From NCBI GenBank assembly GCA_019745975.1, contig JAIESQ010000028.1:1-64000 (forward strand): a stretch of 64,000 nt of DNA, read 5' to 3'. Position 1 is the stretch's first letter. The number at the start of each line of letters is the position of its first letter. Under the pieces are notes generated by a model. It was not told where the DNA came from. It made no database searches and worked only from the letters and a program-made list of their open reading frames with translations. Position numbers and translations under genes: made by a program. Positions 5,817 to 59,122 of the stretch are shown one piece after another. The DNA comes from Pirellulales bacterium (GTDB lineage Bacteria > Planctomycetota > Planctomycetia > Pirellulales > JAEUIK01).

Positions 5817-6133
5817 TTTGGCAATTGGGCAAGAAACCAGAACTCTGCGAACGACCATTCCGGCGGTCAGAGGCTGCCGCGACGATGATCCATCATTCTA
5901 TCGCCGCAGGCCACACCGGCTGGTCCCGGCGGCGCGATTTGGCGGAAGAAATCGCCGGCGGAGTGCGGGTTTGGCGGGAATTCCGGACACTGAGAGCGCC
6001 TTGGGCCAAACGGTCGCAGGGGATGTCGCGGCCGTCTATACTCGAGGGCTCAGCAGGCCACGACCTTGGGGGGCCGACTGGCGACAGCCCTCCGGGAAGC
6101 GGGCCGACTCATCGCGGGGAAGAGGGAACGCTA

Positions 6134-8671: not shown

Positions 8672-8806
8672 ATTCAAACGGTATCACTACCGAAGCGGGC
8701 TCTGTGTTAGCGCCCCAGGCGGCGATCTGCTACCATGGTAGCGCCAACCGGCCAGCGACGACCTCGGGCTCGCCAGCCCCCGCCTTTCCACGGAGCCTTG
8801 CCAGTC

Positions 8807-10135
8807 ATGACGAAACACGCGACGTCCCCTGCTGCGACTTCGGCTGCCAAAACCACGCGCCGCGGATTCTTGCGAAACTCCTCGGGCGCGCTGGCCGCCG
8901 GCTCGATGGCCGCGACGCTGGCCGGCACGTTGTCGGTGGCGCGGCACGCGCACGCCGCCGGGGCCGACGACACCCTCAAGGTCGGCTTGATCGGTTGCGG
9001 CGGGCGCGGCACCGGTGCGGCCGCCCAGGCGCTGCAGGCCGATCCCGGTTCACGGTTGTGGGCGCTGGGAGATGCGTTTGGCGATCGCCTGCAATCGAGC
9101 CTCGAAAACTTGAAGAAGATGCCTGAGGTGTCGTCGAAGATCGACGTGGCCGAGGATCGCTGTTTCGTCGGCTTCAATGCCTTTCAGCAAGTGATCGACA
9201 GTGGCGTCGATGTGGTGGTGCTGGCCACGCCGCCGCATTTCCGACCGCAGCACTTGGCCGCGGCGGTGGCGGCCGGCAAGCACATCTTTTGCGAGAAGCC
9301 GGTGGCGGTCGACGCGCCGGGCGTGCGCAGCGTGCTTGAAACGAGCGAGCTGGCCAAGCAGAAGGGGCTGTCGATCGTTTCCGGGCTGTGCTGGCGCTAC
9401 GACTACGGCGTGCGCGAGACGGTCAAACGCATTCAAGATGGCGCGATCGGCGACATTGTCGCCATTCAAGAGAACTACCTGGCGGGCAGCTTGTGGATGC
9501 ACCCGCGGCAGCCGAGCTGGAGCGACATGGAGTGGCAACTGCGCAACTGGCTGTACTTCTCGTGGCTCTCGGGGGATCACAACGTCGAGCAGCACGTACA
9601 CAGCTTGGACAAAGCGATGTGGCTCTTGGGCGACGTGCCGCCGCTGAAGGCCACGGGGCTGGGGGGCCGGCAGGTGCGCACGGGGCCGGAGTATGGCCAC
9701 ATCTTCGATCATCACGCCGTGGTGTATGAGTTCCCGAACGACGTGAAGGTGTTCGCCTATACGCGGCAGATGGATGGCTGCGCGAGCGACGTCGAAGACT
9801 ACGTGATGGGGACCAAGGGGCGCGCCGAAATCCTGCGGCACGTCATCAACGGCGACGAGCGGTGGCGCTACCGCGGCGCGAAGAACAATATGTACCAGAC
9901 CGAGCACGACGAACTGTTCGCCGCCATCCGCAGCGGGCAGCCGATCAACAACGGCCAGTACATGGCCAACAGCACGCTGATGGCCATCATGGGGCGGATG
10001 GCGACCTACACCGGCAAGACGATCACAGGCGACGAAGCCTTGGCTTCGAGCGAGCGGCTGGGGCCGACGACTTACGAATTCGGCCCGCTGGAAGTGCCAC
10101 CGGTGGCGATGCCGGGCCGCACGGCGTTCGCGTAG
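8807..10135 (+). CDS. TAT-exported Gfo/Idh/MocA family oxidoreductase
   Basis: 442 residues. A twin-arginine signal (TTRRGFLRNSS followed by an Ala-rich hydrophobic stretch) is followed by a Rossmann NAD(P)-binding fold (LKVGLIGCGGRGTGAA) and the family's catalytic EKP motif (FCEKPVAVD). The C-terminal half is the usual alpha/beta dimer domain. Such proteins are very abundant in planctomycetes and act on sugars or cyclitols; the substrate cannot be told. The ATG at 8807 was chosen because the signal peptide begins there; upstream in-frame residues are Pro/Arg-rich filler. Its neighbour upstream is the lyase, so both may work on the same carbohydrate, which is only suggested by position. Confidence 0.9.
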   Translation: MTKHATSPAATSAAKTTRRGFLRNSSGALAAGSMAATLAGTLSVARHAHAAGADDTLKVGLIGCGGRGTGAAAQALQADPGSRLWALGDAFGDRLQSSLENLKKMPEVSSKIDVAEDRCFVGFNAFQQVIDSGVDVVVLATPPHFRPQHLAAAVAAGKHIFCEKPVAVDAPGVRSVLETSELAKQKGLSIVSGLCWRYDYGVRETVKRIQDGAIGDIVAIQENYLAGSLWMHPRQPSWSDMEWQLRNWLYFSWLSGDHNVEQHVHSLDKAMWLLGDVPPLKATGLGGRQVRTGPEYGHIFDHHAVVYEFPNDVKVFAYTRQMDGCASDVEDYVMGTKGRAEILRHVINGDERWRYRGAKNNMYQTEHDELFAAIRSGQPINNGQYMANSTLMAIMGRMATYTGKTITGDEALASSERLGPTTYEFGPLEVPPVAMPGRTAFA

Positions 10136-10223
10136 TGCGGCAATCGCGGCATGTGCTTCCAGCCCGTGAAGAGAGTACGGCCAGGATGGCCGTGCCAGGT
10201 TCTAGCCCGGATTATTCATGGCC

Positions 10224-10300
10224 GTGTGCCACTGCTTGCCCGTATGGCAAGCAGTGTTTGTTTTCCAGGAATGCACTGCTTCTGCGAAGCAGTGGCACAC
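10224..10300. repeat. Double-hairpin palindromic repeat, family C
   Basis: Two perfect hairpins stand in tandem: 10231-10255 (10-bp stem, ACTGCTTGCC/GGCAAGCAGT) and 10274-10294 (CACTGCTT/AAGCAGTG). The outer ends GTGTGCCACTGCTT (10224-10237) and AAGCAGTGGCACAC (10287-10300) are perfect reverse complements, so the whole unit is a composite palindrome. It lies between convergent genes. It may help end transcription, but its structure is that of a REP/BIME-type repeat. Confidence 0.7.
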
Positions 10301-10336
10301 CGACAAACTTTCTAACCGGAACATGAACAAGCCAGG

Positions 10337-11467
10337 CTACCGCAGATCGGATTTGGCCCGCAGGTGCCGGTAGAGGCGCAGCGGGGTGCGCAGCCAGGGG
10401 CTGAAGCGTGGATCGTGCACGATGTTGCGCATGGCGCGGACGCCGCGACGGACAAGTGGGCGAACCAGCCGCAGATCGACCGAGCCTTCGACCAGCGCGA
10501 CCGCGCTGTTGGTGACGCGCGCCTTGTATTGTTCCGGGCCTTTCCCCAAGTCGATGCACTGGATGCCCAAGGCTGGCGACGCCTCGACCAACTTGACCAG
10601 CAGCACCATGCCCGGCGAGTGCTTCGATAGCTCGCGGTCGAAGGCAAAGATCCAATTGTGCAGCACCGGACCGGAGCGCAGGCCGAAGATGATCGCGGCC
10701 AGGCGGTCGCCCGCATAGAGCGTGGTCACCATCCCGGAGAAGCCTGATGTTTGCATCACGGCAATTTGCCGCAGCAGCCGCTCGATCCAAGGAACGGCGA
10801 ACGTGTTGACCAAATCGGTGCGGGCAAATTGCTCGGCCTTCCAGCGGAAGAGCGCGTCGAGCACCGCGGGATTGGTGTCGCGCAGCTCCAAGCGCAGCGG
10901 GCCAAGATCGCGCTCGAGGACGCGGGCAGCGCGTCGGGCTTTGGGGATGACGTCGGTACCGGCGGCGGCGCGCTGGGCGACGTAAGCCTCGAACCCGTCC
11001 GCGAGGTCGATACATGGCGAAACGGCCGCACCCCAGCAGAACGATGCAAACGCCTGCTCCTCGGCGAGCAAGTGGTCGAAATCCCAACTCGTCAGCCGGC
11101 AAGCGCGGACGAGACGGGGGGCATTCCCACGCCAAGGACTGGCGGCGATGACGGCTTGATAGTCGGACAGCGGTCCGCCGACCGGTCGGCCGGCTCCCGA
11201 TCGCGTGCGCTGGTAGGGAAAGAAGCCGACGGGCTCGCCCGAGAGCTCGAGCACCGCTACCAGGACGTCGTCGCGGTGTTCGGCCACCAGTCGCGTGAAT
11301 TCGGGCTGAAAGAAGGGTCCGGCCAGCGTTGGACGAGCGGCAGTTATCTCACGCCAGATCGCCAGGAGATCGTCGTCGAGTTCGCGCGCCGGCAGAACCA
11401 CGACGCGATCGAAGCACGTACTGGCTTCGTCGCGCGCTGGGGGCGCCGGCTCGATCACCACGGACAT
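10337..11467 (-). CDS. CelD/BcsL-type GNAT acyltransferase
   Basis: 376 residues resembling the FemAB/GNAT-fold proteins annotated as CelD, linked to cellulose or exopolysaccharide biosynthesis. The C-terminal acyltransferase fold is visible in VTTLYAGDRLAAIIFGLRSG, followed by HNWIFAFDRELSKHSPG and IQCIDLGKGPEQYK. No membrane segment or signal is seen, so it is cytoplasmic. The start is well fixed: TAGGAGG lies 6 nt before the ATG. It is a single gene between two repeat-rich spacers. The acceptor could be a polysaccharide precursor or another amine; this is not resolved by the sequence. Confidence 0.75.
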   Translation of the reverse strand: MSVVIEPAPPARDEASTCFDRVVVLPARELDDDLLAIWREITAARPTLAGPFFQPEFTRLVAEHRDDVLVAVLELSGEPVGFFPYQRTRSGAGRPVGGPLSDYQAVIAASPWRGNAPRLVRACRLTSWDFDHLLAEEQAFASFCWGAAVSPCIDLADGFEAYVAQRAAAGTDVIPKARRAARVLERDLGPLRLELRDTNPAVLDALFRWKAEQFARTDLVNTFAVPWIERLLRQIAVMQTSGFSGMVTTLYAGDRLAAIIFGLRSGPVLHNWIFAFDRELSKHSPGMVLLVKLVEASPALGIQCIDLGKGPEQYKARVTNSAVALVEGSVDLRLVRPLVRRGVRAMRNIVHDPRFSPWLRTPLRLYRHLRAKSDLR

Positions 11468-11687
11468 GCGATCCTCCTAAGGCATCGGCACGCCACGAAT
11501 TGGACGGTCCGCGCGCGATACCAGACAGGTGGCGCAACGCGAAGCCCGCGCTGGCCACGGGAAAATCTAGCTTGATGCGAGGCGACGGCTGGCGTGCTCG
11601 AGCGATCGCTTGCGCGTGGATGCACGGCGGTAGCGATACGCAGGCACAATCCTTGCCGGCAGAAAAATCGGCGCAATCGTGCCGGCC

Positions 11688-11722
11688 AGTGGAGCGTCAA
11701 CCCGATTCACTCGGGTGACGCG
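11688..11722. repeat. Palindromic repeat, family D, copy 1
   Basis: An AGTGGAGCGTCAACCC start, a short loop and GGGTGACGCG end form a hairpin. The reverse complement of 39002-39037 has the same AGTGGAGCGTCA start and GACGCG end with a different loop, so the two are copies of one family in opposite orientation. It lies in a 346-base spacer between the CelD-type and DUF1598 genes, which otherwise shows no gene. Confidence 0.6.
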
Positions 11723-11789
11723 CAACACCGCCCGACACGCAAGTGGTTGGGCAGCAATAAACACCTCGTGCTCTGCCTCTGGCTCGACC

Positions 11790-11821
11790 GGAACTAGAGG
11801 CGTTGACAGAGCACTAGTTCC
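11790..11821. repeat. Inverted repeat at the end of the DUF1598 gene
   Basis: GGAACTAG (11790-11797) and CTAGTTCC (11814-11821) form an 8-bp stem with a 16-nt loop; the right arm contains the DUF1598 stop codon. It could act as a transcript-end hairpin on the minus strand. No clear T-tract. Confidence 0.4.
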
Positions 11822-13193
11822 ACCACCACGAGCTGTCGGGGGCGGCACGCGACTTTTCGCGGACTTCGGCGACATGGCCGTCGGCGTCGGGCGAGAGCTT
11901 GTCGAGCGCGCCCCAAGAGTTAATCACCACGCCCCCCGAGGCACTCACCACCCAACTGTTGCCTTTGCGGAAGAAGCTCGCGCGGCTATCAACTTGCCGG
12001 GCCGCGGGGAGTTCGAGGGGCGGCAGCCCGTCGGCGCCGGTGAGGGCCAGTAGCGGGCAGTTAGCTTTGGCGGTGAAATCCTCCTTGGTCAAGAGCGCGG
12101 CGACGACCGCCAGATCCATCAAGTTCGACAGTTCGGCGAAGACGGGAATGTGGCGGGACACGTCGTCGTAGCGGCGCGTGAACTGATCGGCCCAGCGCTG
12201 GGCGTCGGGGCTGGCGCGGCCGGAGGACGTGCGTTGGCCGGAGTCGTCGACGCTCGAATCCTCAGTTACCGTCTTCACCCGCGCGCCGCGGATTTCCCAG
12301 GCCAGATTGTCAGCGGTGCGCAAGATCGCGTCGTAGTCGGGCTCGAGCCACCAGCGAGGCATCATGCTGCCGCGTCCGCTGGCCAGGTGCAAATAGCTAC
12401 CCAGCCCTTTGACTGGCGACGGCTCGAAGTTCATCGCCAGGCACTTCATGCGGAAGTCGGCGGCCACCATCACGCGGGCGAAATGACTCGTCGCCGGCAC
12501 GCCCGCCACGGTGACGCGCTGCGGCCCCAGGCTCTCTTCGATTTCGATGATCGCGGCATTCGGATCGCTGGCCAAAAGCTCGCCCGACGAGGCCAGAAAC
12601 TGTTGCAAGCGGGTCATGCCCGCCGCGCTGGGGTCGATCGAGCAACTGATACCGTCGGCCTGCACGTCGCGGGCGGTGCGCAGCGCGACGACGAGGTCGT
12701 CGAGCCAGAGCACCGGGCGACCGGTCGAGACGCCGACGAAGGTGCCACGATCGTCGAGGCGCCACGCTTCGCCGTAACCGACGAGCACGATGTCCTGTTG
12801 GTCGGGATATATTAAAACGTAGCGCACGTCTTGCAGGCCGGCGAGAAACTGCACTTCTTCGGGCAGGTCTGCGCCTGCGGCGCGCGAGCGCGCGACCTCG
12901 GCATCAAGCCGCTTGAGCGAAACCTTGCGCAGCGGAGTGTGCTTGTTGAGGTCGGCAGGCAAGCGGGCCAGCGCCGCGGCGTAGTGTTCGCGCAGCTCGC
13001 CCGATAATTCGACGTCGGCGCGGGAAAGAATGCCGCGGGCGTTGATGGCCACGCCACCAACGCCACCGCTCGCCACGCGCGGGAACTGCTGCGCGCGTGC
13101 GGGTTCGCGGAGTGCCCCAACCAGGACCAGTGGCGCCAAAACCAGTGCCCGCCAGAGCCCCAGTGCCCGCGCGGAGAATGATCGCTGTTGCAT
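11814..13193 (-). CDS. DUF1598-family exported protein
   Basis: 459 residues matching the planctomycete family DUF1598 in overall pattern: a signal peptide (LVLAPLVLVGAL, cleavage near RAQQ), then GGVGGVAINARGIL, LPADLNKHTPLRKVSLKRLD and a central block LRDVRYVLIYPDQQDIVLVGYGEAW-like segment ending in WLDDLVVALRTA. A second region (about 190-330) begins CSIDPSAAGMTRLQQF. No catalytic motif is recognised and the function is unknown. The protein should be periplasmic. I prefer the ATG at 13193 (MQQRSFSA) to the GTG at 13205. It stands alone. Confidence 0.8.
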   Translation of the reverse strand: MQQRSFSARALGLWRALVLAPLVLVGALREPARAQQFPRVASGGVGGVAINARGILSRADVELSGELREHYAAALARLPADLNKHTPLRKVSLKRLDAEVARSRAAGADLPEEVQFLAGLQDVRYVLIYPDQQDIVLVGYGEAWRLDDRGTFVGVSTGRPVLWLDDLVVALRTARDVQADGISCSIDPSAAGMTRLQQFLASSGELLASDPNAAIIEIEESLGPQRVTVAGVPATSHFARVMVAADFRMKCLAMNFEPSPVKGLGSYLHLASGRGSMMPRWWLEPDYDAILRTADNLAWEIRGARVKTVTEDSSVDDSGQRTSSGRASPDAQRWADQFTRRYDDVSRHIPVFAELSNLMDLAVVAALLTKEDFTAKANCPLLALTGADGLPPLELPAARQVDSRASFFRKGNSWVVSASGGVVINSWGALDKLSPDADGHVAEVREKSRAAPDSSWWWN

Positions 13194-13205
13194 GTCGGTA
13201 GCCAC

Positions 13206-13716
13206 CAGTCGCCGAGCTCGAGAGACTGTTCCTAGAGGGTGATCGTGGCCGTGCGTGCACCGTCACCGCGCGCCCAACTTCTCAATACAGAGCCTAATCT
13301 GCGCTGGTCGCAGGGGCAATTCGCGGCGATTCAGGTGGCAGTGCCATTGGGCACCGGAGATCGAATGGCGAAGAAACTGCCGGCATTTGACGAGCCTGGG
13401 TGGCGCGAGGCCCTGCGGACCCTTGAAATGGGCCCCAGGTCAGGACTAAGGTGTAGATGAGGCGTCGAGGGGCCGCACGGTCGGCCCCGGGCGGCGCCCG
13501 CCACGTTCGCCCAGGCACGGGCACCACTCTCATCCGCACACAAATTGCCCTGTGGGCCGTCAGCCATAGCCGCGAGCACCGCGATAAGTTGACCGACTTC
13601 GGGCGGCCAATCTCGGCTAAACTGGCGGCTCCGACCAGCCGCGTACTTCGCCTCCAAAGGTCTGGAGGTGGTGACACCGCTCACGACGGCCACCTCGTTG
13701 CCAATTGGCGAGGGCC
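13206..13716. other. Intergenic region between DUF1598 and the sigma54-type regulator
   Basis: About 510 bases between divergent genes. No supportable coding sequence. A hairpin is seen at 13469-13488 (GGGGCC/GGCCCC). TTGACC at about 13586 lacks a well-spaced -10 box. No tRNA cloverleaf or riboswitch was recognised. Confidence 0.4.
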
Positions 13717-45246: not shown

Positions 45247-46368
45247 ATGGCGGAAAAGAAGAAGCTCTCGGTTGCCGAAATCCTCGCGGCCGCGCGCAAG
45301 GCCGATAGTGGCGGCGCGACCGCCGCGAGCGAGTCGCCTGCCACGTCACCGGCCGATGTCGCGCCGGCAGAGCCAGCCGAAGTAAGCGCGGAGGCGGCAG
45401 TCGAGTCGACTCCGGCCGAGACGCCAGCGCCCACGGCGCCCAAGCCGGCGACTACCGGCACTCCAGGAAAGCGACCGAGTGTAGCCGATATTCTCGCGGC
45501 CGCGCGACAGAAGCAAGCTCCCGGCGCCGCGGCTCCGGCCGCCAAGCCCGCGGCAGCGAAACCCGCGGCCAAGCCGCCCGGCGATAAGCCTGCGAATCCG
45601 GCTGCAAAACCGGCCGCAGGCGAGGCTGCGCCGCGTGGCAGCGGCGTGAAAGATACGGCGAGTATTCTGGCCGCGGCGCGCGGCGGCAATAAACCGGGCC
45701 CGATCTCGAAGGCGGAGGCCGCCGCGCTTACGAAGCCCGCTGCACCTGCGCGCACGACTGAAAAGACCAAGCTGGCGGTGCCGCCGATGCCGGCCAAGCC
45801 CCAGTACGCCGCGACGAAGCCTGGCGAGAAGAAAGCCGTCGAGACCGAGGAGCGGCGCGGGTTTCTGGGCGCATTCTTCGGCGCGTTTATGGGCTCTTTC
45901 CTGGGGCTGGGTTTCTCCTCGCTGGCCGCGACTAATGCGCTGTGGGGACTCGGGACGGCGCGGTTCATGTTCCCCAATGTGCTGATCGAGCCGCCAAGCA
46001 CGTTCAAGGTGGGACCGCCGACCGACTTTCCGCCGGGGGCGGTGTCGGAGAAGTTCAAGGCGCAGTTTGGTGTCTGGGTGGTGAATGGCGAATACAACGG
46101 GCAGCAGCAACTCTACGCGATACGGACAGTGTGCACACATTTGGGGTGCACACCGAACTGGCTCGAAGGGGAGCAGAAGTTCAAGTGCCCCTGTCACGGC
46201 AGCGGCTTTTACAAGGATGGCGTCAACTTCGAAGGACCAGCCCCGCGTCCGCTCGAGCGCTACGCGATCCGGCTAGCCGACGACGGTCAATTGGAAATCG
46301 ACAAGAGCAAGAAATTCCAGGAAGAACTCGGCCAGTGGCGCGATCCGTCGTGCTTCGTGGTCGCCTAA
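45247..46368 (+). CDS. Rieske iron-sulfur protein with long N-terminal extension
   Basis: 373 residues, about twice the usual length. The Rieske domain has C296-T-H298 and C314-P-C-H317 as [2Fe-2S] ligands, with C301 and C316 as the disulfide pair. A TAT-like RRGFLGAFFGA (203 on) begins the membrane helix (about 205-235). The first 200 residues form a Pro/Ala/Lys-rich extension that should lie in the cytoplasm, with three copies of a short motif: SVAEILAAAR (8-17), SVADILAAAR (78-87), DTASILAAAR (136-145). This protein takes electrons from quinol at the bc/b6f-type complex. It is the first gene of the respiratory run, followed 78 nt later by cytochrome b. Confidence 0.92.
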   Translation: MAEKKKLSVAEILAAARKADSGGATAASESPATSPADVAPAEPAEVSAEAAVESTPAETPAPTAPKPATTGTPGKRPSVADILAAARQKQAPGAAAPAAKPAAAKPAAKPPGDKPANPAAKPAAGEAAPRGSGVKDTASILAAARGGNKPGPISKAEAAALTKPAAPARTTEKTKLAVPPMPAKPQYAATKPGEKKAVETEERRGFLGAFFGAFMGSFLGLGFSSLAATNALWGLGTARFMFPNVLIEPPSTFKVGPPTDFPPGAVSEKFKAQFGVWVVNGEYNGQQQLYAIRTVCTHLGCTPNWLEGEQKFKCPCHGSGFYKDGVNFEGPAPRPLERYAIRLADDGQLEIDKSKKFQEELGQWRDPSCFVVA

Positions 46369-46446
46369 CCGACTGGCCGCGAACGGCCTCACCGTCATGT
46401 ACCGGGCCGAGGCGCCTGGTCGCCAGTGGAGAGAAGAACAACCGCT

Positions 46447-47220
46447 ATGTCGCTCGGCGAGACCATTCGCAATAGCCAGGTTTGGAAGAGCATCTTTCGG
46501 CATCCGATGCCCTTGGATCGCCGCAACCGCATTGTGGTGATGCTCACCAATTTCTTCTTGCACCTGCACCCCGTGTCGATCAAGAAACAGGGGATTGCCC
46601 TGTCGTACACCTGGTGCATGGGCGGGGTGACCTTCTTCCTGTTCCTGGTCGAGACGGTCACCGGCGTGCTGTTGATGTTCTATTATCGCCCCACGTTGGA
46701 GTGGGCGTATCACGATATTCTCGATCTCCGCGACGTCACCAGCCTGGGGATCTTACGCGAGCTGCACCGTTGGGGCGCGCACGCCATGGTGATCACAGTC
46801 TGGCTGCACATGTACCGGGTGTTCTTAACCGGCAGCTACAAGCCGCCGCGCGAGTTCAACTGGGTGGTCGGCGTGATCCTGTTGTTGCTCACGCTGTTGT
46901 TGTCGTTTAGCGGCTACTTGCTGCCGTTCGATCAATTGGCGATCTGGGCTATCACGGTCGGCTCGAACATGGCCCGGGCGTCGCCGATTCTGGGCTACGA
47001 GGGACCGTTTCAGCAATTGCTGCAGATCGGCGACATCGACATGATCACCGACACGTCCGACGCGCGGTTCGTCACGATCGGCGAGCGCAACGTCGGCGAG
47101 ATGACGCTGAATCGCTTTTACGTGCTGCACTGCATCGGCTTGCCACTGGCGGTCACGCTGCTGTTGGCGATCCACTTTTGGCGCGTGCGCAAGGACGGCG
47201 GCATCAGCGGTCCGTTGTGA
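46447..47220 (+). CDS. Cytochrome b6-type quinol oxidase subunit
   Basis: 257 residues with four membrane helices, as in cytochrome b6 (the N-terminal part of cytochrome b). Heme b ligands are His107/His121 in helix B (HRWGAH...LHMYR) and His228/His243 in helix D; the 15-residue spacing in helix D is the b6 spacing (bc1 has 14). Cys57 in [11 protein letters not shown] aligns with Cys35 of cytochrome b6, which binds the extra heme ci. So the complex is b6f-like rather than bc1-like. The ATG at 46447 has GGAGAGA upstream. Confidence 0.92.
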
Positions 47221-47303: not shown

Positions 47304-48632
47304 ATGCACGGACACGATCCTCATTTTTACGAGAGCATCCAGGGCTTTCTCGGCAGCTACTACCTGGTGCTGTCGATCATGAACGCCGTGGCGGCGCTCT
47401 ATCTGTGGCGCCGCTTGGGGCGCTGGCTCGAAGCAGCCCTGCTGGTCGTGTTGTTCGGTGGCGGATTCGTGGTTCTCTCCGGAATTGCCTATGGCGGTGG
47501 AACCCGCGTACTGGGGCTGCCGCAGAGTTTCAAGGATTTCGTCAACGCCAACACGGGGCCGGTCATCTATACGCTCGGCACCACCGCGGTGCTGGTGATT
47601 TTCTTCGTCTTTCGGCGGTTCTTCACGAAGCCGGCGGTCGCCTGGGTGTCGCTGAACCTGGCCCTGCTGTTCATGGGGCTGTCGATGACCGACCCGAATT
47701 TCTCGCTCATCGTCACCAAGCCCGATAACGTGCCGATCGTGGGCTTGATCTTCCTCTTAGGCTTTTTCACGTGGCTGGCGACCTACAAGGCGGTGCTCAA
47801 TGATGACCGTCTCGCGCAAGGCTTGCCGCCGCTAGAGAAAGAGGACTCGGAAAAGGTCCTGGTCTGGCCCGACCTCGTCTACACCGAACTGATCTGCATG
47901 ATCGCGCTGACAGCGCTGTTGTTGGTGTGGGCCATCGGTCTGAAGGCTCCGCTCGAAGCGCCGGCCAGCAGCGTCAAGACGCCCAATCCTTCCAAGGCGC
48001 CGTGGTACTTCCTCGGCCTGCAGGAGATGCTCGTCTATTACGACCCGTGGATGGCGGGCGTGGTGCTGCCGAGCCTGGTCTTAGTGGGCCTGATGGCGAT
48101 CCCGTTCCTGGACTTCAACAAGAAGGGGAACGGCTATTACACGATCGCCGAGCGGCCGTTCGGCTACATCATCTTTCAGCTTGGCTTTCTCGAGCTGTGG
48201 ATCACGCTGATCATTTTGGGCACGTTCTTGCGCGGGCCGAACTGGAACTTCTTCGGTCCTTACGAATATTGGGACCCCCACAAAGTGCTGGCCCTGAATA
48301 ACAAGGACCTGTCGCAGTTCTTCTGGGTCGACCTGCTCGACAGCGGTCTGCCGAAAGCGCCGTCGGACTCGGGCACGTTAGTGCAACTCGGCTACATCCT
48401 CAAACGCGAGTGCGTGGGCTTCGTGGGTCTGGCGGTGTACTTCGTGCTGCTGCCGCCGATTCTGGCGATGACCGTGTTCCGCAAGTTTTTCGCGCGGATG
48501 GGCTTCATTCGTTACATGCTGATGTCGAATCTGCTTTTGTTCATGGCTGCCCTGCCGCTAAAGATGGTGTTGCGCTGGGTGTTCAACCTCAAGTACATCG
48601 TGCACATCGACGAGTATTTCCTCAATTTTTAG
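47304..48632 (+). CDS. Subunit IV-like (cytochrome b C-terminal) membrane protein, enlarged
   Basis: 442 residues against about 160 for PetD. The core from about 186 to 300 matches subunit IV: VWPDLVYTELICM, then NPSKAPWYFLGLQEMLVYYDPW (in pieces), where APWY replaces the usual PEWY quinol-site motif, and AIPFLDF, then ELWITLIILGTFLRGPNW. About five extra membrane helices precede it (18-163) and two follow (385-425). The extra helices are unrecognised. It completes the quinol-oxidising centre with the b6-type protein. The next gene is the octaheme protein, 62 nt on. Confidence 0.85.
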   Translation: MHGHDPHFYESIQGFLGSYYLVLSIMNAVAALYLWRRLGRWLEAALLVVLFGGGFVVLSGIAYGGGTRVLGLPQSFKDFVNANTGPVIYTLGTTAVLVIFFVFRRFFTKPAVAWVSLNLALLFMGLSMTDPNFSLIVTKPDNVPIVGLIFLLGFFTWLATYKAVLNDDRLAQGLPPLEKEDSEKVLVWPDLVYTELICMIALTALLLVWAIGLKAPLEAPASSVKTPNPSKAPWYFLGLQEMLVYYDPWMAGVVLPSLVLVGLMAIPFLDFNKKGNGYYTIAERPFGYIIFQLGFLELWITLIILGTFLRGPNWNFFGPYEYWDPHKVLALNNKDLSQFFWVDLLDSGLPKAPSDSGTLVQLGYILKRECVGFVGLAVYFVLLPPILAMTVFRKFFARMGFIRYMLMSNLLLFMAALPLKMVLRWVFNLKYIVHIDEYFLNF

Positions 48633-48694: not shown

Positions 48695-51600
48695 ATGCCA
48701 GCGACAGAATCCACCTGGCGCGACGTCAAGCTGATGCACGTCATCTTCGGACTGACGTCGCTGGGCTTGCTGGTCGGCACGATCTGGATGCTCGCGGACG
48801 ATCACAACCGCGAATGGATGCAACTGCAGCGCGATTTCCGCGACGTGCAGGTGTGGTCGATCAATGCCCGCCTGGCGGAACTGGAAACCGGCGAGTTCAA
48901 GAAGCAGCAGGACGAGCTGAACGACAAATTGGCCGCGGCGCGGCGCGAAGTGCCGCCACCCGAGCCGATCGAGCGATTTTGCCAGTTGATGGTCGCGCGC
49001 GATGAGGCCAATCAAGGCCTGGTCGACGACATTCTCGCCCAGTACAAGGCCCTCCAAGAAGCTACCGACGACGATCTGCGTGCCGATCGTCGGGGAATGC
49101 TGGTCAAGAACCTGTCGGGCATCATCGTCGCGGCCCGCCATCAAGAGACGAAGCTGGCCGACATTCTCAAAGCGACGAGGGCCGATTTGAACGTGGCCAT
49201 CAGCGACTACGACATCGGCACGCGCGATAACGTGTCGCAGGCGGACATGGATCGCCTGCAACAGAAGATCAATGATGTCCGGGCGATCGTCGAAACGCAG
49301 ACGCTCGACAGCCAGGCCGCGAACACCTACCGCAAGAACCTCGAACAGGCGCTGGCCGAAGCAACGACCAGCGAGACGGCAGCTCAGAAAGCTATCGACG
49401 ATTTTCAGCAGCGACCCAAGCAGCTCGCCAAGGCCGAGCAGGCCGAGGAGCGTAGCTGGGGAGAGCGCGTGCTCGAGATGCCGATTATCGACGCCTTCGG
49501 CCGGCCGCTGAAGGTCAATCAGATCTGGCTGCCGCAACTGACGACGAACATCAATTTCCGCGACGTGGCCCGGTTCGATCGCTGCACCACCTGCCACCAA
49601 GGGATCAATCTCACGGCCCCCGGCTCGGCAGTCGATCCGGCGTACCACGGCGCGGAGATTCTCACATTTACGCTCGCCACGCCTGAAGCGCCCCCGCAAG
49701 GCGAAGCAGATAAGCCGGCTGAGCCTACGGTCGAGGCCGTTTATGGCATGAAGCTGGCCGACAAGTTACGCAAGGGGAGCGTGGCGATTCAGGCTGTGTG
49801 GCCCGATCAAGCGGCCGCCAAAGCCGCGCGCGTGGCGCCGGGCGTAGTCCCTGCGCTCGCGCCGCAGAATCCGCCGGGGACGTTGCAGCATGGCGATGCG
49901 GTGGTGTATCAGCCCCCGGCGGGGTTGCGCGCCGGCGACGTGATCGAACGCGTCAACGATTTGGATATTCTCTCGCTGCAGCAAGCCGAGAACGCACTGT
50001 TGTCAGCCGTCACCTGGGGCCAGCCGCTGACCTTGCATGTGCGGCGCGGCGCGGCGCAGCCGTTCAGCTCGCATCCCCGGCTCGACCTTTTTGTCGGCGA
50101 CGCCAGTCCGCACAGTTCGGCCAAGATGGGCTGCACGATTTGCCACGACGGGCAAGGCAACGCCACGACGTTTCAATGGGCTTCGCACTCCCCCAACAGC
50201 GAACTGCAGCGCGAGGAATGGTCGCGCGTGCACGGGTACCACTTCAACCACGATTGGTGGTTCCCGATGTTCCCCAAGCGGTTCGCCGAAAGCACCTGCT
50301 TAAAGTGCCATCACGATCTCGGCGAGCTGGAGCCGAGCGCTCGCTTTCCCGAGCCGCCGGCCGCCAAGTTGATGGAAGGCTTCCACCTCGTTCGACAATA
50401 CGGTTGTTTCGGTTGTCATGAAATCAACGGCTTCGACGGCCCGAACAAGCGGATCGGCCCCGATCTGCGCAGCGAGCCGAATATTGCGGCCGCGGCCCAA
50501 CAGTTGCTGACCGACCCGGGCGTGAGTGAGGAGGAAAAACAGCTCTCCGAGACGCTCATCACCAATCCATACGATCGCACCGCGCTGGCGCGGTTGGGTG
50601 AGTTGTTGCGGGCCGATGAGACGCGGGCCGCCGAGAAGCAAGAAGAGGCGGGACAAGAGCCGCCGAAGCTATCGGCCCCGTCGTTCCAGTTGCTGAGCAT
50701 CCTAGGCGCGCCGGAGGAAATCCCCGGCAAGATGCGCAAAGTCGGCCCCAGCCTGCGGCACCTGAAGAGCAAGGTCGATTTCAACTTCGTCTACGACTGG
50801 GTTCGCGAGCCGAGGCACTTCCGGCCGTCGACCCGCATGCCGCAATTCTTCGGTCTGTGGGATCATCTTGTGCCAGTGGTCGAGACCGATGCGGCTGGGC
50901 ACGAGCAGATCGAGGAGTCGAAAGGACTCAAGGACGCCGAGCGCTTTGAGCCGATCGAAATCCGCGCGATCACGCAGTACTTGCTGGGGCATAGCCAGCC
51001 ATTCGAATACCTCGACCGCCCGGCAGGCGTGACCGAGGAACCTTCGGCCGAGCGCGGCCGCAAGCTGTTCGAAACGCGCGGCTGCCTGGCCTGCCATCAG
51101 CACCCCGATTTCCCCACGGCACAAGCCGATCAGGGACCCGCGCTGGGCCGGCTGTCGGCCAAGCTCACCAGCGAAGCGGGGAGGCGCTGGCTTTACACCT
51201 GGCTGCGCGAGCCAACGGCTTATCATCCGCGCACGCTGATGCCGAACCTGTTCCTCGAGCCGATCAAGCAGAAGATCGACGGTCAGGATCGCGTGACCGA
51301 CCCGGCGGCCGACATCGCTGCCTACCTGTTGGCGCCGCGCGACGGCGACGCCGAGTACAAGCCGCTCGTCCCTGAGCAGCTTCCGGCCGAAGCCGATCTG
51401 AACGAACTGGTGCTCTTGCACCTGAAAAAGGCCTTCACGGAAGTGCAGGCGGAAAAATATCTGAAAGAAGGGATTCCGGCCGATCGCGCTGCCGACGTGC
51501 CGGCTGACGAACGCGAGCTGACCGCGCCACTGACCGCCGAGAAGAAGTTCGAATATATCGGCCGCAAGGCGATCTCGAAGTACGGCTGCACCGGCTGCCA

Positions 51601-53200
51601 TGACATCCCCGGTTACGAGACCACGAAGCCGATCGGCACTGGGCTGGCTGACTGGGGCCGCAAAGAGGCCGACAAACTGGCCTTCGAGCAGATCGACCAG
51701 TACATCGCCTGGATCGAGCACGCTCACGGAGGCGGGCATGGCACTGGCGAACACGGTCACGCCGAGCACGCGTCGGAAGATACGCCCGAGGGGCTCGACG
51801 CGTTCCGGGCACGCAAAGCCGACGAGCTCAAACGGTTCGACCCCGATGGTTTGCTCCTGCACGAGCTAGGGCATCACCACCGCATGGGCTTTTTGTGGAA
51901 CAAGATCCGCGAGCCGCGCAGCTACGACTACAAGAAGACCGAGAATAAGGACTACAACGACCGGCTGCGGATGCCGAAGTTCAACTTCACGCCCGACCAG
52001 GTCGAGGCGGTGATGACGTTTGTACTTGGGCTGCTGGCCGAACCACCGGCGGCGCAGTATGTCTATCGCGCGTCGCCACGGCAGCAGGCGATCAACGAAG
52101 GCAAGCACGTTCTCGAGAAGTTTAACTGTGGCGGCTGCCACACGCTGGAGATGCCGCACTGGCAATTCGAGTACGATCCACAGCAATTCCCGCCGCCCGC
52201 CGAGCTCAACGATTACGCCTTCTTGGCGCCGCACTTCGACCCCGCCACGCTCGAAGATTCGGCCAAAGTTGATCACCGCGGATTGGGCTCAGCGGACATT
52301 GCCGGCCAGCCGATGGTCGACGCCGAAGGGAACTTCGTCGAAGACGTCGACGAGAACGAAAACCCCCTCTACTTCTTCACGCTCTGGCAGAACAAGCCGA
52401 TTGCAGGACACGCGTATACGTCGGGCACGCAGTTGGGCGTCGCCAAGCCGCAATTGGTTTCGGCCCGTCCCGCTTGGGGCGGCTACCTGTCGCGGTTGAT
52501 TTATCCGTCGGTGCTGGCGACCGGGCGCGAGGAAAACCCGAACTTCAAGGACACCGATGCCTGGGGCTGGCTGCCGCCGCCACTGGTGGGCGAGGGGCGC
52601 AAGGTGCAGCCCGCCTGGCTGCACGACTTCTTGCTCGACCCGGTGTCGATCCGCCCGGCCGTGGTGCTGCGGATGCCGAAGTTTAACCTCTCGACCGACG
52701 AAGCAAGCAAGCTGGTCGATTACTTCGCCGCGGCCGACGGCGCGGAGTATCCGTATGCGATCGATCCGCGGACGCGCGGCGCGCACCTGGCGGCGGCCGA
52801 AGCGACGCATCCCAATCGCCTGGCCGATGCGATGAAGATCGTCACCAACGGCAACTACTGCGTGAAGTGTCATCACTTGGGCGATTTCGTCCCCGACGGG
52901 AGCGTGTACGCAATGGCGCCGAATTTGGACCGCGTCTATCGTCGGCTGCGGCCCGACTTCGTCCGCGACTGGGTCGCCAATCCACCGAGAATCATTCCGA
53001 CGACGGTGATGCCGATCAACATTCCGCCCGACAAGCCAATTGCTCAAGACATCTTCGAGGGGACGAGCGAAGAGCAGTTGCAGGGGGTGGTCGATCTGCT
53101 GATGAACTACGACGTGTTCATGAAGGATCGCACGAGCATCCGCCCGATGATTCAGGCGGCGCCTCCCGAGGCCGCCGGGCAGGCGGCGGGGGGCGAGTAA
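48695..53200 (+). CDS. Giant octaheme cytochrome c with coiled-coil and PDZ-like regions
   Basis: 1501 residues. One membrane helix (13-33) anchors an exterior protein. A coiled coil follows (about 35-90 and 150-258), then the first heme motif CTTCH (297-301), a PDZ-like region (about 380-452, GLRAGDVIERVNDLDIL) and seven more CxxCH motifs at 480, 535, 571, 797, 965, 1145 and 1389. After each of the last five, a block with WxxxP and a Met-Pro (Met715, 849, 1093, 1327, 1439) could give the sixth ligand; the first three hemes lack one. A His-rich loop lies at 1009-1026. It occupies the place of cytochrome c1/f in the run and probably carries electrons from the Rieske protein to the oxidase. The architecture is unusual. 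Confidence 0.9.
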   Translation: MPATESTWRDVKLMHVIFGLTSLGLLVGTIWMLADDHNREWMQLQRDFRDVQVWSINARLAELETGEFKKQQDELNDKLAAARREVPPPEPIERFCQLMVARDEANQGLVDDILAQYKALQEATDDDLRADRRGMLVKNLSGIIVAARHQETKLADILKATRADLNVAISDYDIGTRDNVSQADMDRLQQKINDVRAIVETQTLDSQAANTYRKNLEQALAEATTSETAAQKAIDDFQQRPKQLAKAEQAEERSWGERVLEMPIIDAFGRPLKVNQIWLPQLTTNINFRDVARFDRCTTCHQGINLTAPGSAVDPAYHGAEILTFTLATPEAPPQGEADKPAEPTVEAVYGMKLADKLRKGSVAIQAVWPDQAAAKAARVAPGVVPALAPQNPPGTLQHGDAVVYQPPAGLRAGDVIERVNDLDILSLQQAENALLSAVTWGQPLTLHVRRGAAQPFSSHPRLDLFVGDASPHSSAKMGCTICHDGQGNATTFQWASHSPNSELQREEWSRVHGYHFNHDWWFPMFPKRFAESTCLKCHHDLGELEPSARFPEPPAAKLMEGFHLVRQYGCFGCHEINGFDGPNKRIGPDLRSEPNIAAAAQQLLTDPGVSEEEKQLSETLITNPYDRTALARLGELLRADETRAAEKQEEAGQEPPKLSAPSFQLLSILGAPEEIPGKMRKVGPSLRHLKSKVDFNFVYDWVREPRHFRPSTRMPQFFGLWDHLVPVVETDAAGHEQIEESKGLKDAERFEPIEIRAITQYLLGHSQPFEYLDRPAGVTEEPSAERGRKLFETRGCLACHQHPDFPTAQADQGPALGRLSAKLTSEAGRRWLYTWLREPTAYHPRTLMPNLFLEPIKQKIDGQDRVTDPAADIAAYLLAPRDGDAEYKPLVPEQLPAEADLNELVLLHLKKAFTEVQAEKYLKEGIPADRAADVPADERELTAPLTAEKKFEYIGRKAISKYGCTGCHDIPGYETTKPIGTGLADWGRKEADKLAFEQIDQYIAWIEHAHGGGHGTGEHGHAEHASEDTPEGLDAFRARKADELKRFDPDGLLLHELGHHHRMGFLWNKIREPRSYDYKKTENKDYNDRLRMPKFNFTPDQVEAVMTFVLGLLAEPPAAQYVYRASPRQQAINEGKHVLEKFNCGGCHTLEMPHWQFEYDPQQFPPPAELNDYAFLAPHFDPATLEDSAKVDHRGLGSADIAGQPMVDAEGNFVEDVDENENPLYFFTLWQNKPIAGHAYTSGTQLGVAKPQLVSARPAWGGYLSRLIYPSVLATGREENPNFKDTDAWGWLPPPLVGEGRKVQPAWLHDFLLDPVSIRPAVVLRMPKFNLSTDEASKLVDYFAAADGAEYPYAIDPRTRGAHLAAAEATHPNRLADAMKIVTNGNYCVKCHHLGDFVPDGSVYAMAPNLDRVYRRLRPDFVRDWVANPPRIIPTTVMPINIPPDKPIAQDIFEGTSEEQLQGVVDLLMNYDVFMKDRTSIRPMIQAAPPEAAGQAAGGE

Positions 53201-53401: not shown

Positions 53402-54154
53402 ATGACACGTCATTTGATATGCCTGCCAGCGGTCGTCGTCGCAGCGGCACTTTGGACCTCGACGGCCGCCGCCCAGCAGTGGGGGACGCTCAAGGGCAAG
53501 TTCGTCTACGACGGACCGTCGCCTGCTCCCGTGGCGCTGCGGATCGACAAGGATCCTGAGTGCTGCAAGGTCAAACACAACGATGAATCGCTCGTCGTCG
53601 CTGCCGACGGGGGGCTGGCCAACATCGTTTTGTATCTGCGCACGCCGAAACCCGCCGTCCATCCCGACTATGAGAAGACGGCCAAGGACAGCGTGGTCAT
53701 CGATAACAAGACCTGCCATTTCGAACCGCACATTGTCGTGCTGCGGCTGACGCAAACGCTGTTAATCAAGAACTCCGACACGTGCGGCCACAATACGAAT
53801 GTCGCGCCGTTGGGCGACACGGCGATCAACCCGCTACTGCCGCCGTCCGGCGAGTTCACGCATACGTTTCGTCGCCAGCAGAATTTGCCATTCCCGGTGA
53901 GCTGCAACATCCATCCCTGGATGAAGGCCCATGTGCTGGTGCGCGACAACCCGTATTTCGCCGTTTCGGCCGCCGACGGCACGTTTGAGATCAAGAACCT
54001 GCCAGCCGGCGACCTCGAGTTCCAGGCCTGGCACGAGAAGGCCGGCTACCTGGAGCACACAGGCTGGCCCAAGGGCAAGTTCAAGCAAAAGGTCAACGCC
54101 GGCGACAACGATCTGGGGACCATCAAGTTGAGCGCGGCGCTGTTTAAGAAGTAA
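53402..54154 (+). CDS. Exported cupredoxin-like protein 1
   Basis: 250 residues. A signal peptide (VVVAAALWTSTAAA) and a beta-rich domain follow. The metal-site pattern is His130 (CGHNTN) and Cys168-N-I-His171-P-W-Met174, which fits a type 1 copper site with the short C-x2-H-x2-M spacing. The C-terminal GTFEIKNLPAGDLEFQAWHEK is a carboxypeptidase-regulatory-like repeat. It is a periplasmic protein that could carry electrons between the octaheme protein and the oxidase; the copper is inferred. GGGGGAAC stands before the ATG. It is 202 nt beyond the octaheme gene. Confidence 0.75.
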   Translation: MTRHLICLPAVVVAAALWTSTAAAQQWGTLKGKFVYDGPSPAPVALRIDKDPECCKVKHNDESLVVAADGGLANIVLYLRTPKPAVHPDYEKTAKDSVVIDNKTCHFEPHIVVLRLTQTLLIKNSDTCGHNTNVAPLGDTAINPLLPPSGEFTHTFRRQQNLPFPVSCNIHPWMKAHVLVRDNPYFAVSAADGTFEIKNLPAGDLEFQAWHEKAGYLEHTGWPKGKFKQKVNAGDNDLGTIKLSAALFKK

Positions 54155-54193: not shown

Positions 54194-55111
54194 ATGATGA
54201 CAAATGCGCGACGAGATTGGGCACTGACGGCAGGCGCAGTGCTGTGCATGGCACTTGTGGTGGGCTGCGGCCGTAGCAGCTCGGATCAGCCGCTGGCGCA
54301 GGCCAACGTGGTAGACGCTGTCCGCAAGGAGCTCGGTTCGTCGAGCACCGCGGAAGCCGAAGCCGCAAGCGGAGCCACAACCGCTGCCACGCCTACCGGC
54401 ACTGGCTGGGGCTCGCTGACAGGTTCGTTTGTGTTCGAGGGGACGCCTCCGGCTCCCAAGCTGCTGCCTACGGGAGGCAAGGATGCCCCCACCTGTAACC
54501 CTAACGGCATCCAGGATGAGTCGCTGGTGGTCGATCCCCAGTCGAAGGGGATCAAGAACGTGCTGGTATTCGTGCGCAAGGTGTCGCGCACGCACGAGTC
54601 GCTGGCCCAGGCCGCCTCGGAGCCTGCCGTGTTCGATCAGAAAAACTGCATGTTTCTCACCCACGTGTTGCCCGTCGTGGTCAAGCAACCGGTGGTGCTC
54701 AAGAACAGCGAGGCGGGGGTCGGGCATAACACGCAAATCTCGCCACCGGCCGATACCGCCGTGAACCCCCTGCTTCCACCGGGAGGCCAGCAAGACTACG
54801 CCTTTGGGCGCCCGCAGAACGTGCCGGTGCCGGCGACGTGCAGCATCCACCCCTGGATGAAGGCCTACATCATTCCGCGCGACAATCCGTATTTCGCGGT
54901 CAGCGACGCATCAGGCAAGTTCTCGATCGCGAACATTCCCGACGGCGAGGATCTCGAAATCCAGCTCTGGCACGAAAGCGCCTCGGGAGCCCGCGGGGCA
55001 CTCGTGGTTTCGGGCCTCACTGACGGCAAAGGGATCATCAAACGCAAGCTGGGCGAGAACGAAGCGGTAGACCTGGGAGTAATCCAGTTGCCGGCCTCGG
55101 CTTTCAAATAG
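54194..55111 (+). CDS. Cupredoxin-like lipoprotein 2
   Basis: 305 residues, a paralogue of the preceding gene. The lipobox ALVVGCG predicts a lipid anchor. A low-complexity Ala/Thr/Ser linker precedes the conserved core; copper ligands are His178 (GHNTQ), Cys216, His219 and Met222 in CSIHPWMKA. It ends with the same SGKFSIANIPDGEDLEIQLWHES pattern. Two similar proteins, one soluble and one lipid-anchored, point to a relay or to exchange between complexes; this is inference. It starts 40 nt after protein 1. Confidence 0.75.
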   Translation: MMTNARRDWALTAGAVLCMALVVGCGRSSSDQPLAQANVVDAVRKELGSSSTAEAEAASGATTAATPTGTGWGSLTGSFVFEGTPPAPKLLPTGGKDAPTCNPNGIQDESLVVDPQSKGIKNVLVFVRKVSRTHESLAQAASEPAVFDQKNCMFLTHVLPVVVKQPVVLKNSEAGVGHNTQISPPADTAVNPLLPPGGQQDYAFGRPQNVPVPATCSIHPWMKAYIIPRDNPYFAVSDASGKFSIANIPDGEDLEIQLWHESASGARGALVVSGLTDGKGIIKRKLGENEAVDLGVIQLPASAFK

Positions 55112-55222: not shown

Positions 55223-56509
55223 ATGAGCAATCTGCACGCTCCGCGAAATCTGTTTCGGGCGTTGGCGTTCTTGGCCTGCGGCGCCGCGCTGGTCGGTTGC
55301 GGCCAGTCGGACGCCGCCCGGTTTCGTCTCAACATGGATGGGCGCGACCCGACATTCGCTTCGTATGAAGTACAAGCCGATGAGGCCAAGACGAGCGAAG
55401 AAAGCAAGCAGTTTCGCGAAGATCGCAAAGTCGCCATTGCCAACGAGAAGGTCCGCCAGCAGCTCGTCGTCGACTTATTGACGGCCGGCTTTGGCACACC
55501 TGACGAGCCGTTCGCTCCCTCCGACTTGGGGCTCGATATCGCCAGGCTGCGCCGTGCCGCGGGCCCGGTTGCCAGTTACCAATCGGGTCAACAGCATGGG
55601 CTTTATCGCAAGCACTGTGCCCACTGCCACGGAATCTCGGGCGACGGCGCCGGCCCCACGGCGCTGTTCTTGAATCCCTACCCGCGCGACTACCGACCGG
55701 GCGTCTTTAAGTTCACATCGACGGGCCCGGGAATGAAGCCGACGCGTGCCGACCTCGAGCGGACGATTCGCGAGGGGCTGGCTGGCACCGCGATGCCGTC
55801 GTTCGCCACGCTGCCGCAGTTCGAGGTCGACGCGCTGATCGAGTACGTCATCTACTTGAGCATTCGTGGCGAGACCGAAACACTTCTGAATGCGGCGTTC
55901 GAAGGCGAAGAGCTTGAGCCGATCGACCTGAAGGCCGACGCCGCCAAGCAGCAGGAGCAGGCGACGGCCCTCGCCGAGCGGCTGAAGAGTGAAGCCGCTG
56001 ACCGCGCATCGCTCTGGACGGCCGCCGTGGACACCATCGTAGTGCCCAATCAGGAGGCGATTCCCCCCTTTCTTCCGGCCGAAGGCACCGCTGAGTGGCA
56101 AGCCTCGGTCGAGCGCGGGCGGGTGTTGTTCCGCGACAGCAAGACCGCCAACTGCATCAAGTGTCACGGACTAACGGCACTGGGTGACGGCGGTGGCGAA
56201 GAGCTGTTCGACGACTGGAACAAGGCCAAGCCGGCCAACACCAAACCTGAAATCGCCCTGTGGGAATTGCCAAAGCAGGAGCTGCGGCCGCGCAATTTGC
56301 GGCTGGGTATCTACCGCGGCGGCCGCCGCCCGGCCGATTTGTATCGCCGCATTCACGTCGGCATCAAGGGAACGCCAATGCCGGCAGCCGGCAACGTGCT
56401 GACGCAGCCGGGGCAGATTTGGGACATCGTGAACTACGTGTTGTCGCTACCGTACGAAGCATCGGGCGAGGCCAAGCCCACGCAGCCCAGCGTGGCACAA
56501 GCGCCTTAG
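55223..56509 (+). CDS. Diheme cytochrome c lipoprotein
   Basis: 428 residues. The lipobox LVGCGQ anchors it to the membrane. Two class I cytochrome c domains hold CAHCH (132-136) and CIKCH (311-315); Met residues for the sixth ligand are likely in AMPSFATLPQFEVDALIEYVIYL and in KGTPMPAAGN. It is placed directly before coxB, whose product lacks a fused cytochrome c, so it may be the electron donor to the CuA centre. Confidence 0.88.
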   Translation: MSNLHAPRNLFRALAFLACGAALVGCGQSDAARFRLNMDGRDPTFASYEVQADEAKTSEESKQFREDRKVAIANEKVRQQLVVDLLTAGFGTPDEPFAPSDLGLDIARLRRAAGPVASYQSGQQHGLYRKHCAHCHGISGDGAGPTALFLNPYPRDYRPGVFKFTSTGPGMKPTRADLERTIREGLAGTAMPSFATLPQFEVDALIEYVIYLSIRGETETLLNAAFEGEELEPIDLKADAAKQQEQATALAERLKSEAADRASLWTAAVDTIVVPNQEAIPPFLPAEGTAEWQASVERGRVLFRDSKTANCIKCHGLTALGDGGGEELFDDWNKAKPANTKPEIALWELPKQELRPRNLRLGIYRGGRRPADLYRRIHVGIKGTPMPAAGNVLTQPGQIWDIVNYVLSLPYEASGEAKPTQPSVAQAP

Positions 56510-56576: not shown

Positions 56577-57322
56577 GTGGGAAAATTCTGGAGCCTGCTG
56601 TTCTTGCTGGTGCCGATCCTGGGGGTGTTGTGCTTCGCGCTGGCGCCGCTATCGGGTTATTGGCTGCCGCCCGATATTTCGGAGCACGGCTATAAGATCG
56701 ACCACTTGTTCAAGTTTTGCTTGTATCTGACGGGCGTGGTGTTCATCGCCACGGAAGTGGTGCTGTTCTGGTTCATGTGGCGCTACGACGGCCGTACGAA
56801 CCGCGATCCGGTGAAGTTCTCGCACGGCAGCCACAACCTGGAGATCATCTGGACGATCGTGCCAGCGGCCACGCTGTTGTTCATCGCCATCTACCAGATG
56901 AACGCTTGGGCCGATGCCAAGATGCGCACGCCGAACGTGCCCGCCATCGTTGAGGTCACTGGGCGGCAGTTCGAGTGGCGCATTCGCTACCCTGGCCCCG
57001 ACGGCGAGTTGGGTACCGAGGACGACATTCACGGCGTCAACGACTTGCACCTGCCGGTCAATGAACAGATCGTGCTCAACCTGAAGAGCATGGACGTGCT
57101 GCACGACTTTTTCGTGCCACAACTGCGCATCAAGCAGGATGCCGTTCCTGGCAACAAGATTCCCATGTGGTTCACGGCCCGCGAAACCGGCACCTATGAA
57201 ATCGTCTGCGCCGAGCTGTGCGGGTGGGGGCATTACAAGATGAAGGGGCGTCTGACCGTCGAGTCGCGGGAAGCGTTCGACGCCTGGCTGAAACAACGCG
57301 CCGCGGAGCAAAAGGCCACGCA

Positions 57323-57326
<4 letters not shown>
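56577..57326 (+). CDS. coxB: Cytochrome c oxidase subunit II
   Basis: 249 residues. Two membrane helices precede a cupredoxin domain with the binuclear CuA site: His176 (VLHDFF), Cys211 and Cys215 in CAELCGWGHYKM, His219 and Met222. No C-terminal cytochrome c domain, so it is of aa3 rather than caa3 type. GTG start with AAAGG 7 nt upstream. It overlaps coxA by four nucleotides. Confidence 0.95.

Positions 57327-59122
<1,796 letters not shown>

Follow-up and report, generated by a model that had tools for sequence, protein, structure and literature searches.

An octaheme c-type cytochrome as the probable replacement of cytochrome c1/f in a planctomycete Rieske/cytochrome b6 operon that leads into an aa3-type oxidase

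Within the genome of a Pirellulales bacterium (GenBank assembly GCA_019745975.1), a stretch of 64,000 nucleotides at positions 1 to 64,000 of contig JAIESQ010000028.1, here called the window, carries an open reading frame (ORF) of 1501 amino acids (aa; 48695..53200) that encodes an octaheme c-type cytochrome, apparently in place of cytochrome c1/f. The gene belongs to an operon that reads Rieske protein, cytochrome b6, subunit IV-like protein (SUIV), octaheme protein, two cupredoxins, diheme cytochrome c, cox2 and cox1, the last two encoding an oxidase of the aa3 type; all features from the Rieske gene to cox1 lie on the plus strand. The order of the first four genes had been given in a preliminary description drawn from the sequence alone, and the ORF list together with Pfam searches bears it out. 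The octaheme protein is likely to be the c-type cytochrome subunit of a quinol-oxidising complex III composed of Rieske, b6 and SUIV proteins (the cytochrome b6f architecture), occupying the c1/f position and sending electrons outward to copper proteins or the diheme cytochrome c.

The eight CxxCH motifs of the ORF lie at residues 297, 480, 535, 571, 797, 965, 1145 and 1389, precisely where the preliminary description had placed them, and shuffles of the same residues give a mean of 0.007 such motifs and a maximum of 2. As had been claimed, a Met-Pro pair follows each of the hemes 4 to 8; in 33 diverse homologues, a set restricted to proteins with eight or more CxxCH motifs, Met715, Met849, Met1093 and Met1327 are kept in all 33 and Met1439 in 32. 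On the basis of motifs and homologue alignment, heme unit 4 extends from CxxCH 571 to Met715-Pro716 (50405..50842, also backed by profile comparison), unit 5 from CxxCH 797, where the Pfam Cytochrom_C region starts, to Met849-Pro850 (51083..51244), unit 6 from CxxCH 965 to Met1093-Pro1094 (51587..51976), unit 7 from CxxCH 1145 to Met1327-Pro1328 (52127..52678), and unit 8 from CxxCH 1389 to Met1439-Pro1440 (52859..53014). The WxxxP block that had been assigned to all five of these units stands in units 4, 5 and 8 (W702, W836, W1426) and fails in units 6 and 7, which carry K1070..P1074 and W1308..P1316 instead of a strict W-x3-P. The view that the last five hemes belong to repeated monoheme units gains from profile comparison, in which units 4 to 8 are interrelated through unit 4 as a hub (96-98% probability) and units 5 to 8 also directly, with some direct pairs, such as 7 and 8, not significant. 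Hemes 1 to 3 are not clearly related to these units by the same comparison and, again in line with the preliminary description, lack a Met. The first of them lies at residues 297-301 (49583..49597; motif and homologue alignment), and the second and third (CxxCH 480 and 535; 50132..50311) have His460, His473 and His498 close by, each invariant in 33 of 33 homologues and the obvious candidates for the sixth ligands of hemes 1 to 3. The simplest reading of these alignments is that the protein would hold five His/Met hemes (4 to 8) and three hemes with a His sixth ligand (1 to 3).

The start codon of the octaheme gene is backed by a Met-Pro-Ala sequence that is invariant across 40 aligned N-termini. 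An AlphaFold model of residues 1-522 places at the N-terminus a helix compatible with a membrane anchor (residues 11-37; 48725..48805), followed by a helical coil of about 210 residues (residues 40-251; 48812..49447) whose predicted local distance difference test score (pLDDT) is about 98 across most of its length, in agreement with the coiled coil that had been proposed. A PDZ domain lies between hemes 1 and 2 (residues ~321-455; 49655..50059). Within the window protein itself Pfam recognises the cytochrome c units, with the PDZ domain below threshold, and the earlier suggestion of a PDZ-like region is sustained by a Pfam PDZ match in 33 of the 40 homologue N-termini, by the AlphaFold fold (pLDDT mostly above 90), and by a Foldseek comparison with PDZ structures that returns a probability of 1.0, yet E-values of merely 0.015-0.1. 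The insertion is optional: relatives have anything between 37 and 247 residues separating hemes 1 and 2. Confidence is also high for the model of the core (residues 446-1495), with a mean pLDDT of 81.9 and a predicted template modelling score (pTM) of 0.83. Comparison of the whole protein with structures in the Protein Data Bank (PDB) gave no solved structure with an overall match, and the best local matches of the core are class-I cytochromes such as SoxX. There was likewise no Pfam or NCBIfam match to the HAO, ONR and OTR-type octaheme enzyme families, and the PDB matches were solely to class-I cytochrome c units.

Upstream, the Rieske [2Fe-2S] protein (45247..46368, 373 aa; Pfam Rieske, 2.8e-10) has a long N-terminal part rich in Ala and Pro, and its cluster motif CTHLGC...CPCHGSGF is conserved in 74 homologues. 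The b6-type cytochrome (46426..47220, 264 aa; Pfam Cytochrome_B, 1.2e-37) possesses a Cys64 which, as judged by eye, corresponds to the heme c_n cysteine position of the b6f complex, and which is conserved in at least 95% of 71 homologues. The enlarged SUIV protein (47304..48632, 442 aa; Pfam Cytochrom_B_C, 7.9e-5) does not carry the PEWY motif of the quinol-oxidation (Qo) site of b6f and bc1 complexes; APWY (residues 232-235) replaces it in all 88 homologues with letters at that position, so that the usual proton-accepting Glu of the motif is absent. A Glu241 near the APWY motif is conserved.

Downstream of the octaheme gene lie cupredoxin-like protein 1 (53402..54154, 250 aa), a probable electron carrier in view of its conserved ligands, its weak match to amicyanin in the PDB (E 0.03) and the gene fusions described below, and cupredoxin-like protein 2 (54194..55111, 305 aa), which homologue alignment places in the same family. 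Both contain the His and Cys-x2-His-x2-Met of a type-1 copper site, and the ligands of the first (His130, Cys168, His171 and Met174, in CxxHPWM) are 96-98% conserved in 115 homologues; the Cys-x2-His-x2-Met spacing is that of amicyanin. A diheme c-type cytochrome (55223..56509, 428 aa; Pfam Cytochrome_CBB3/Cytochrom_C), conserved in the operon, is likewise a probable carrier. It is followed by cytochrome c oxidase subunit II of the CuA type, which has no CxxCH (56577..57326; Pfam COX2, and NCBIfam CoxB above cut-off), by subunit I (57323..59122; Pfam COX1, ~1e-150), and, according to the ORF list, by ctaA/ctaB-like genes and oxidase subunits III and IV up to ~62826.

The relation between the octaheme protein and these carriers is illuminated by four relatives (loci L077, L105, L115 and L124) in which the octaheme ORF continues C-terminally into a cupredoxin with intact copper ligands, as in the fusion ORF at 4962-10559 (plus strand) of L077. 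Because L077 belongs to a distant family, such a fusion has probably arisen two or more times, though the genomes are drafts. Such fusions are good evidence, at the level of sequence, for a partnership of octaheme protein and cupredoxin; they also suggest electron transfer from the one to the other, a direction that is our reading of the gene structure. They bear directly on the proposition, raised in the preliminary description as a possible 10-nm wire to the oxidase, that the octaheme protein is a wire in the literal sense, a continuous chain of eight hemes that touches the oxidase and feeds CuA directly, bypassing any mobile or copper carrier. A single operon does join both complexes in most relatives, all eight hemes are always kept among the matches listed, and oxidase subunit II is without a heme c domain, all of which would suit such a wire; against it, two cupredoxins and a diheme cytochrome c are retained between the two gene sets, the fusions argue for a copper step, and the model of the anammox homologue groups its hemes in twos and threes (PMC12954380). 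A direct wire is thus unlikely. The link between octaheme protein and oxidase is supported by the operon context, and because relatives fuse the octaheme protein to a cupredoxin, it is more probable that the octaheme passes its electrons to a copper protein next than directly to the oxidase. Somewhat speculatively, one may envisage that much of the phylum respires oxygen through a fixed III-IV unit, in which the b6/octaheme complex III is joined with the cupredoxins and aa3 oxidase of its operon, and mobile cytochrome c gives way to a chain of hemes and then type-1 copper; this is possible, if rather doubtful.

The distribution of the octaheme gene shows that its complex is a type found across the phylum, far from being confined to a single genome. 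A contig scan yielded at least 80 loci, whose titles name planctomycetes or unplaced bacteria, and among the matches listed (80 named planctomycete contigs) all 62 uninterrupted complete homologues, which were not chosen by heme count, have exactly eight CxxCH motifs. At locus L149 (~9001-13225) the octaheme is divided between two ORFs with four and three CxxCH motifs, either through a frameshift in the draft sequence or through a real break. The full order, from Rieske, b6, SUIV and octaheme through both cupredoxins and the diheme cytochrome c to cox2 and cox1, recurs in relatives that include Blastopirellula marina (L143) and Lacipirellula limnantheis (L132). At E<=1e-3 the octaheme protein has matches in 113 of the 199 Planctomycetota genomes sampled, weak cytochrome c hits included; at E<=1e-40 it has them in 100 of the 146 genomes from the source order. 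Five near-complete genomes from the same order or class (G121, G048, G069, G181 and G152) lack strong matches both to the octaheme and to the b6 of the window; even close to the window lineage, then, the system has a patchy distribution. A plasmid search found no octaheme relatives, and in the open-access literature we found no earlier account of an octaheme complex in aerobic planctomycetes.

Strong b6 matches were found in 85 of the sampled genomes, and in 84 of these the octaheme is matched too, weakly in a few cases. The exception, G169, has a nine-heme protein of 752 aa directly after SUIV, an arrangement that is a variant of the octaheme system; in its locus (L167, 6325-13790) a b6-SUIV pair is followed by this nine-heme protein and by one of 1162 aa whose N-terminus is twin-arginine-like. 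This co-occurrence, like the position of the octaheme gene directly after SUIV, is difficult to reconcile with the octaheme being a co-transcribed branch point that leads electrons elsewhere, for instance to nitrogen compounds or metals, while the diheme cytochrome c at 55223-56509 acts as the true partner of the Rieske protein. What lends this scenario some appeal is the additional enzyme-like octaheme carried by the Kuste4569-4574 complex of Kuenenia (PMC12954380) and the conservation of the diheme cytochrome c in the operon of closer relatives. Conversely, the anammox-type loci and several distant ones have an octaheme and no recognisable diheme cytochrome c in the stretch examined, and all five cytochrome c-type units keep their Met ligand candidate, which argues for electron transfer and not substrate binding at those hemes. 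We regard a branch point as quite improbable.

That the octaheme protein takes the place of cytochrome c1 or f had been proposed from the gene order, and a separate, essential c1 or f gene elsewhere had been named as one observation that would speak against it. Pfam detected neither cytochrome c1 (PF02167) nor cytochrome f (PF01333) in the whole genome, which is 99.9% complete, with Caulobacter and Synechococcus, respectively, positive as control genomes. Given the lack of a Pfam-detectable c1 or f, the conserved operon, the near-perfect co-occurrence with b6 and the parallel arrangement in Kuenenia (PMC12954380), replacement of c1/f by the octaheme protein is well supported. Besides the octaheme complex, the genome has at least one further Rieske/cytochrome b system. 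This second locus lies on contig C172, where a cytochrome b continues into a c part bearing two CxxCH motifs (L040, 5956-8310, minus strand) and a Rieske gene stands just upstream (L007, 2220-2819). This diheme fusion was considered as the missing c1 and is ruled out, being fused to its own cytochrome b and adjoining its own Rieske gene. On contig C204 a further strong COX1 match (C204:34320-35648) has an NrfD gene (C204:27969-28934, L166) some 5 kb away, possibly an operon of alternative complex III and oxidase.

The finding is a variant of a kind already described, the principle being known from the anammox bacterium Kuenenia stuttgartiensis, whose Kustd1480-1485 complex (R/b-2) has an octaheme cytochrome in the place of cytochrome f (Hauser et al. 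2025, PMC12954380, after Kartal et al. 2013). The Kuenenia complexes are modelled, with co-migration reported for Kuste4569-4574, and it is in an AlphaFold3 model of the anammox homologue that the hemes fall into groups of two and three (PMC12954380). As in Kustd1480-1485, the window has adjacent genes for a Rieske protein, a b6-type cytochrome b and an SUIV-like subunit, followed by an eight-CxxCH cytochrome with a transmembrane helix and long helices. The two differ in that the Kuenenia octaheme is of ~950 aa, whereas that of the window has 1501 aa with the PDZ insertion, in that the Kuenenia SUIV has five transmembrane helices against about eight hydrophobic segments in the 442-aa window protein, and in that Kustd1480-1485 includes a nicotinamide adenine dinucleotide (phosphate) (NAD(P)) oxidoreductase subunit and does not run on into cupredoxins, diheme cytochrome c and aa3-type oxidase. 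A homologous operon was found at four anammox-type loci (L051, L052, L056 and L060), with an ORF of 567-570 aa between b6 and SUIV that in L052, the one tested, is a pyridine-nucleotide oxidoreductase (Pfam Pyr_redox_2, 4e-36). The window octaheme aligns with the octahemes of these loci at ~25% identity (1e-61 to 1e-71), with all heme, Met and His positions matched, and in a quick tree these four cluster together within the wider set of planctomycete octahemes. What sets the present system apart from Kuenenia is the lack of the NAD(P) oxidoreductase, the continuation into cupredoxins, diheme cytochrome c and aa3-type oxidase, the PDZ insertion, and the cupredoxin fusions of four relatives.

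The homology to Kustd1480-1485 invites the suggestion that the complex mainly serves reverse electron flow or the formation of NAD(P)H, as proposed for Kuenenia, and that the octaheme acts as its high-potential sink. In Kustd1481, His62 and Arg266-Lys267 are proposed to bind a novel heme b beside the NAD(P) oxidoreductase (PMC12954380), and the equivalents in the window b6, His46 and Arg255-Lys256, are conserved; residues at the published Kuenenia numbers (His62, Arg266) are present in three of the four anammox-type loci. Nevertheless, His46 is conserved in at least 95% of homologues, most of them lacking the NAD(P) subunit, which fits poorly with a role confined to NAD(P) reduction. An NAD(P) oxidoreductase gene is absent from the window operon, which sets it apart from the NAD(P)-linked subtype (R/b-2 and R/b-3 of anammox bacteria), and equally from the operons of aerobic-type relatives, which lead into an oxidase. 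A main function in NAD(P)H formation is therefore highly improbable here, and since in these operons an oxidase takes the place of the NAD(P) oxidoreductase as companion of the octaheme, the anammox NAD(P)H scheme cannot be a precondition of its role.

The reading of the octaheme protein as the c1/f-position subunit of complex III leads to the following scheme. A quinol, probably menaquinol, would be oxidised at a Qo site formed by b6 and SUIV; one electron would cross the membrane via the b hemes, probably also via heme c_n, and the other would pass to the Rieske cluster and then to the octaheme subunit. Anchored by its single N-terminal helix, this subunit probably clasps the complex with its long coil, as in the model of the anammox homologue (PMC12954380). 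Through the Met-ligated heme units the electron would travel outward to type-1 copper (the two cupredoxins) and/or the diheme cytochrome c, from which it would reach the CuA of the oxidase subunit II that has no heme motif. Gene order, heme motifs, ligand candidates, co-occurrence with b6, the absence of c1 and f, and the cupredoxin fusions in relatives are read in the sequences themselves. That the proteins form a complex in this organism is inferred from them, as are the sequence in which the electron steps occur and their direction, the heme that faces the Rieske protein, and the type of quinone.

Several points weigh against this scheme. Hemes 1 to 3 probably have bis-His ligation. Such hemes often have a low potential, and this would fit poorly with their direct reduction by the Rieske protein and an outward path through them. 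The second Rieske/cytochrome b-diheme complex, and the NrfD gene near another oxidase, mean that the octaheme complex may not be the main route. The co-occurrence of b6 and octaheme within one phylum partly reflects shared descent, and the literature search found no biochemistry on the source organism or its aerobic relatives. Cultured carriers such as B. marina and L. limnantheis are possible sources for purifying the complex, and the cupredoxin fusions suggest how electrons may pass between complex III and the oxidase via type-1 copper, a path open to direct testing. The replacement of c1/f described for anammox bacteria proves to be common across the Planctomycetota, and the octaheme explains the seemingly missing c1/f of such genomes.

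Other complexes of this class share some features with that of the window. The layout of the C172 locus resembles the Kuste3096-3097-type complex (cytochrome b fused to diheme c), with a Rieske protein and cytochrome b of its own, separate from the octaheme operon. With cytochrome b6f the window complex shares a split cytochrome b (b6 and subunit IV), a Rieske protein and the heme c_n cysteine, and it departs from b6f in its octaheme in lieu of cytochrome f, its APWY in lieu of PEWY, and its enlarged SUIV. In the cytochrome bc1/bcc group, which includes the actinobacterial bcc-aa3 supercomplexes, a diheme c subunit of the latter replaces c1 and links to the aa3 oxidase. The window complex is comparable in its complex III-like function and, as regards actinobacteria, in its multiheme c subunit and oxidase link, whereas bc1/bcc complexes have an unsplit cytochrome b and a c subunit with one or two hemes, as opposed to eight hemes and cupredoxin partners. 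Finally, among NCBIfam families the b6 of the window matches ExtP (NF040969) best, at 256.8 bits, below the curated cut-off of 290. The Geobacter Ext cluster likewise has a b6/SUIV-like pair (ExtP/ExtQ) clustered with c-type cytochromes, but it is tied to selenite/tellurite reduction and outer-membrane proteins and not, as here, to an oxidase.

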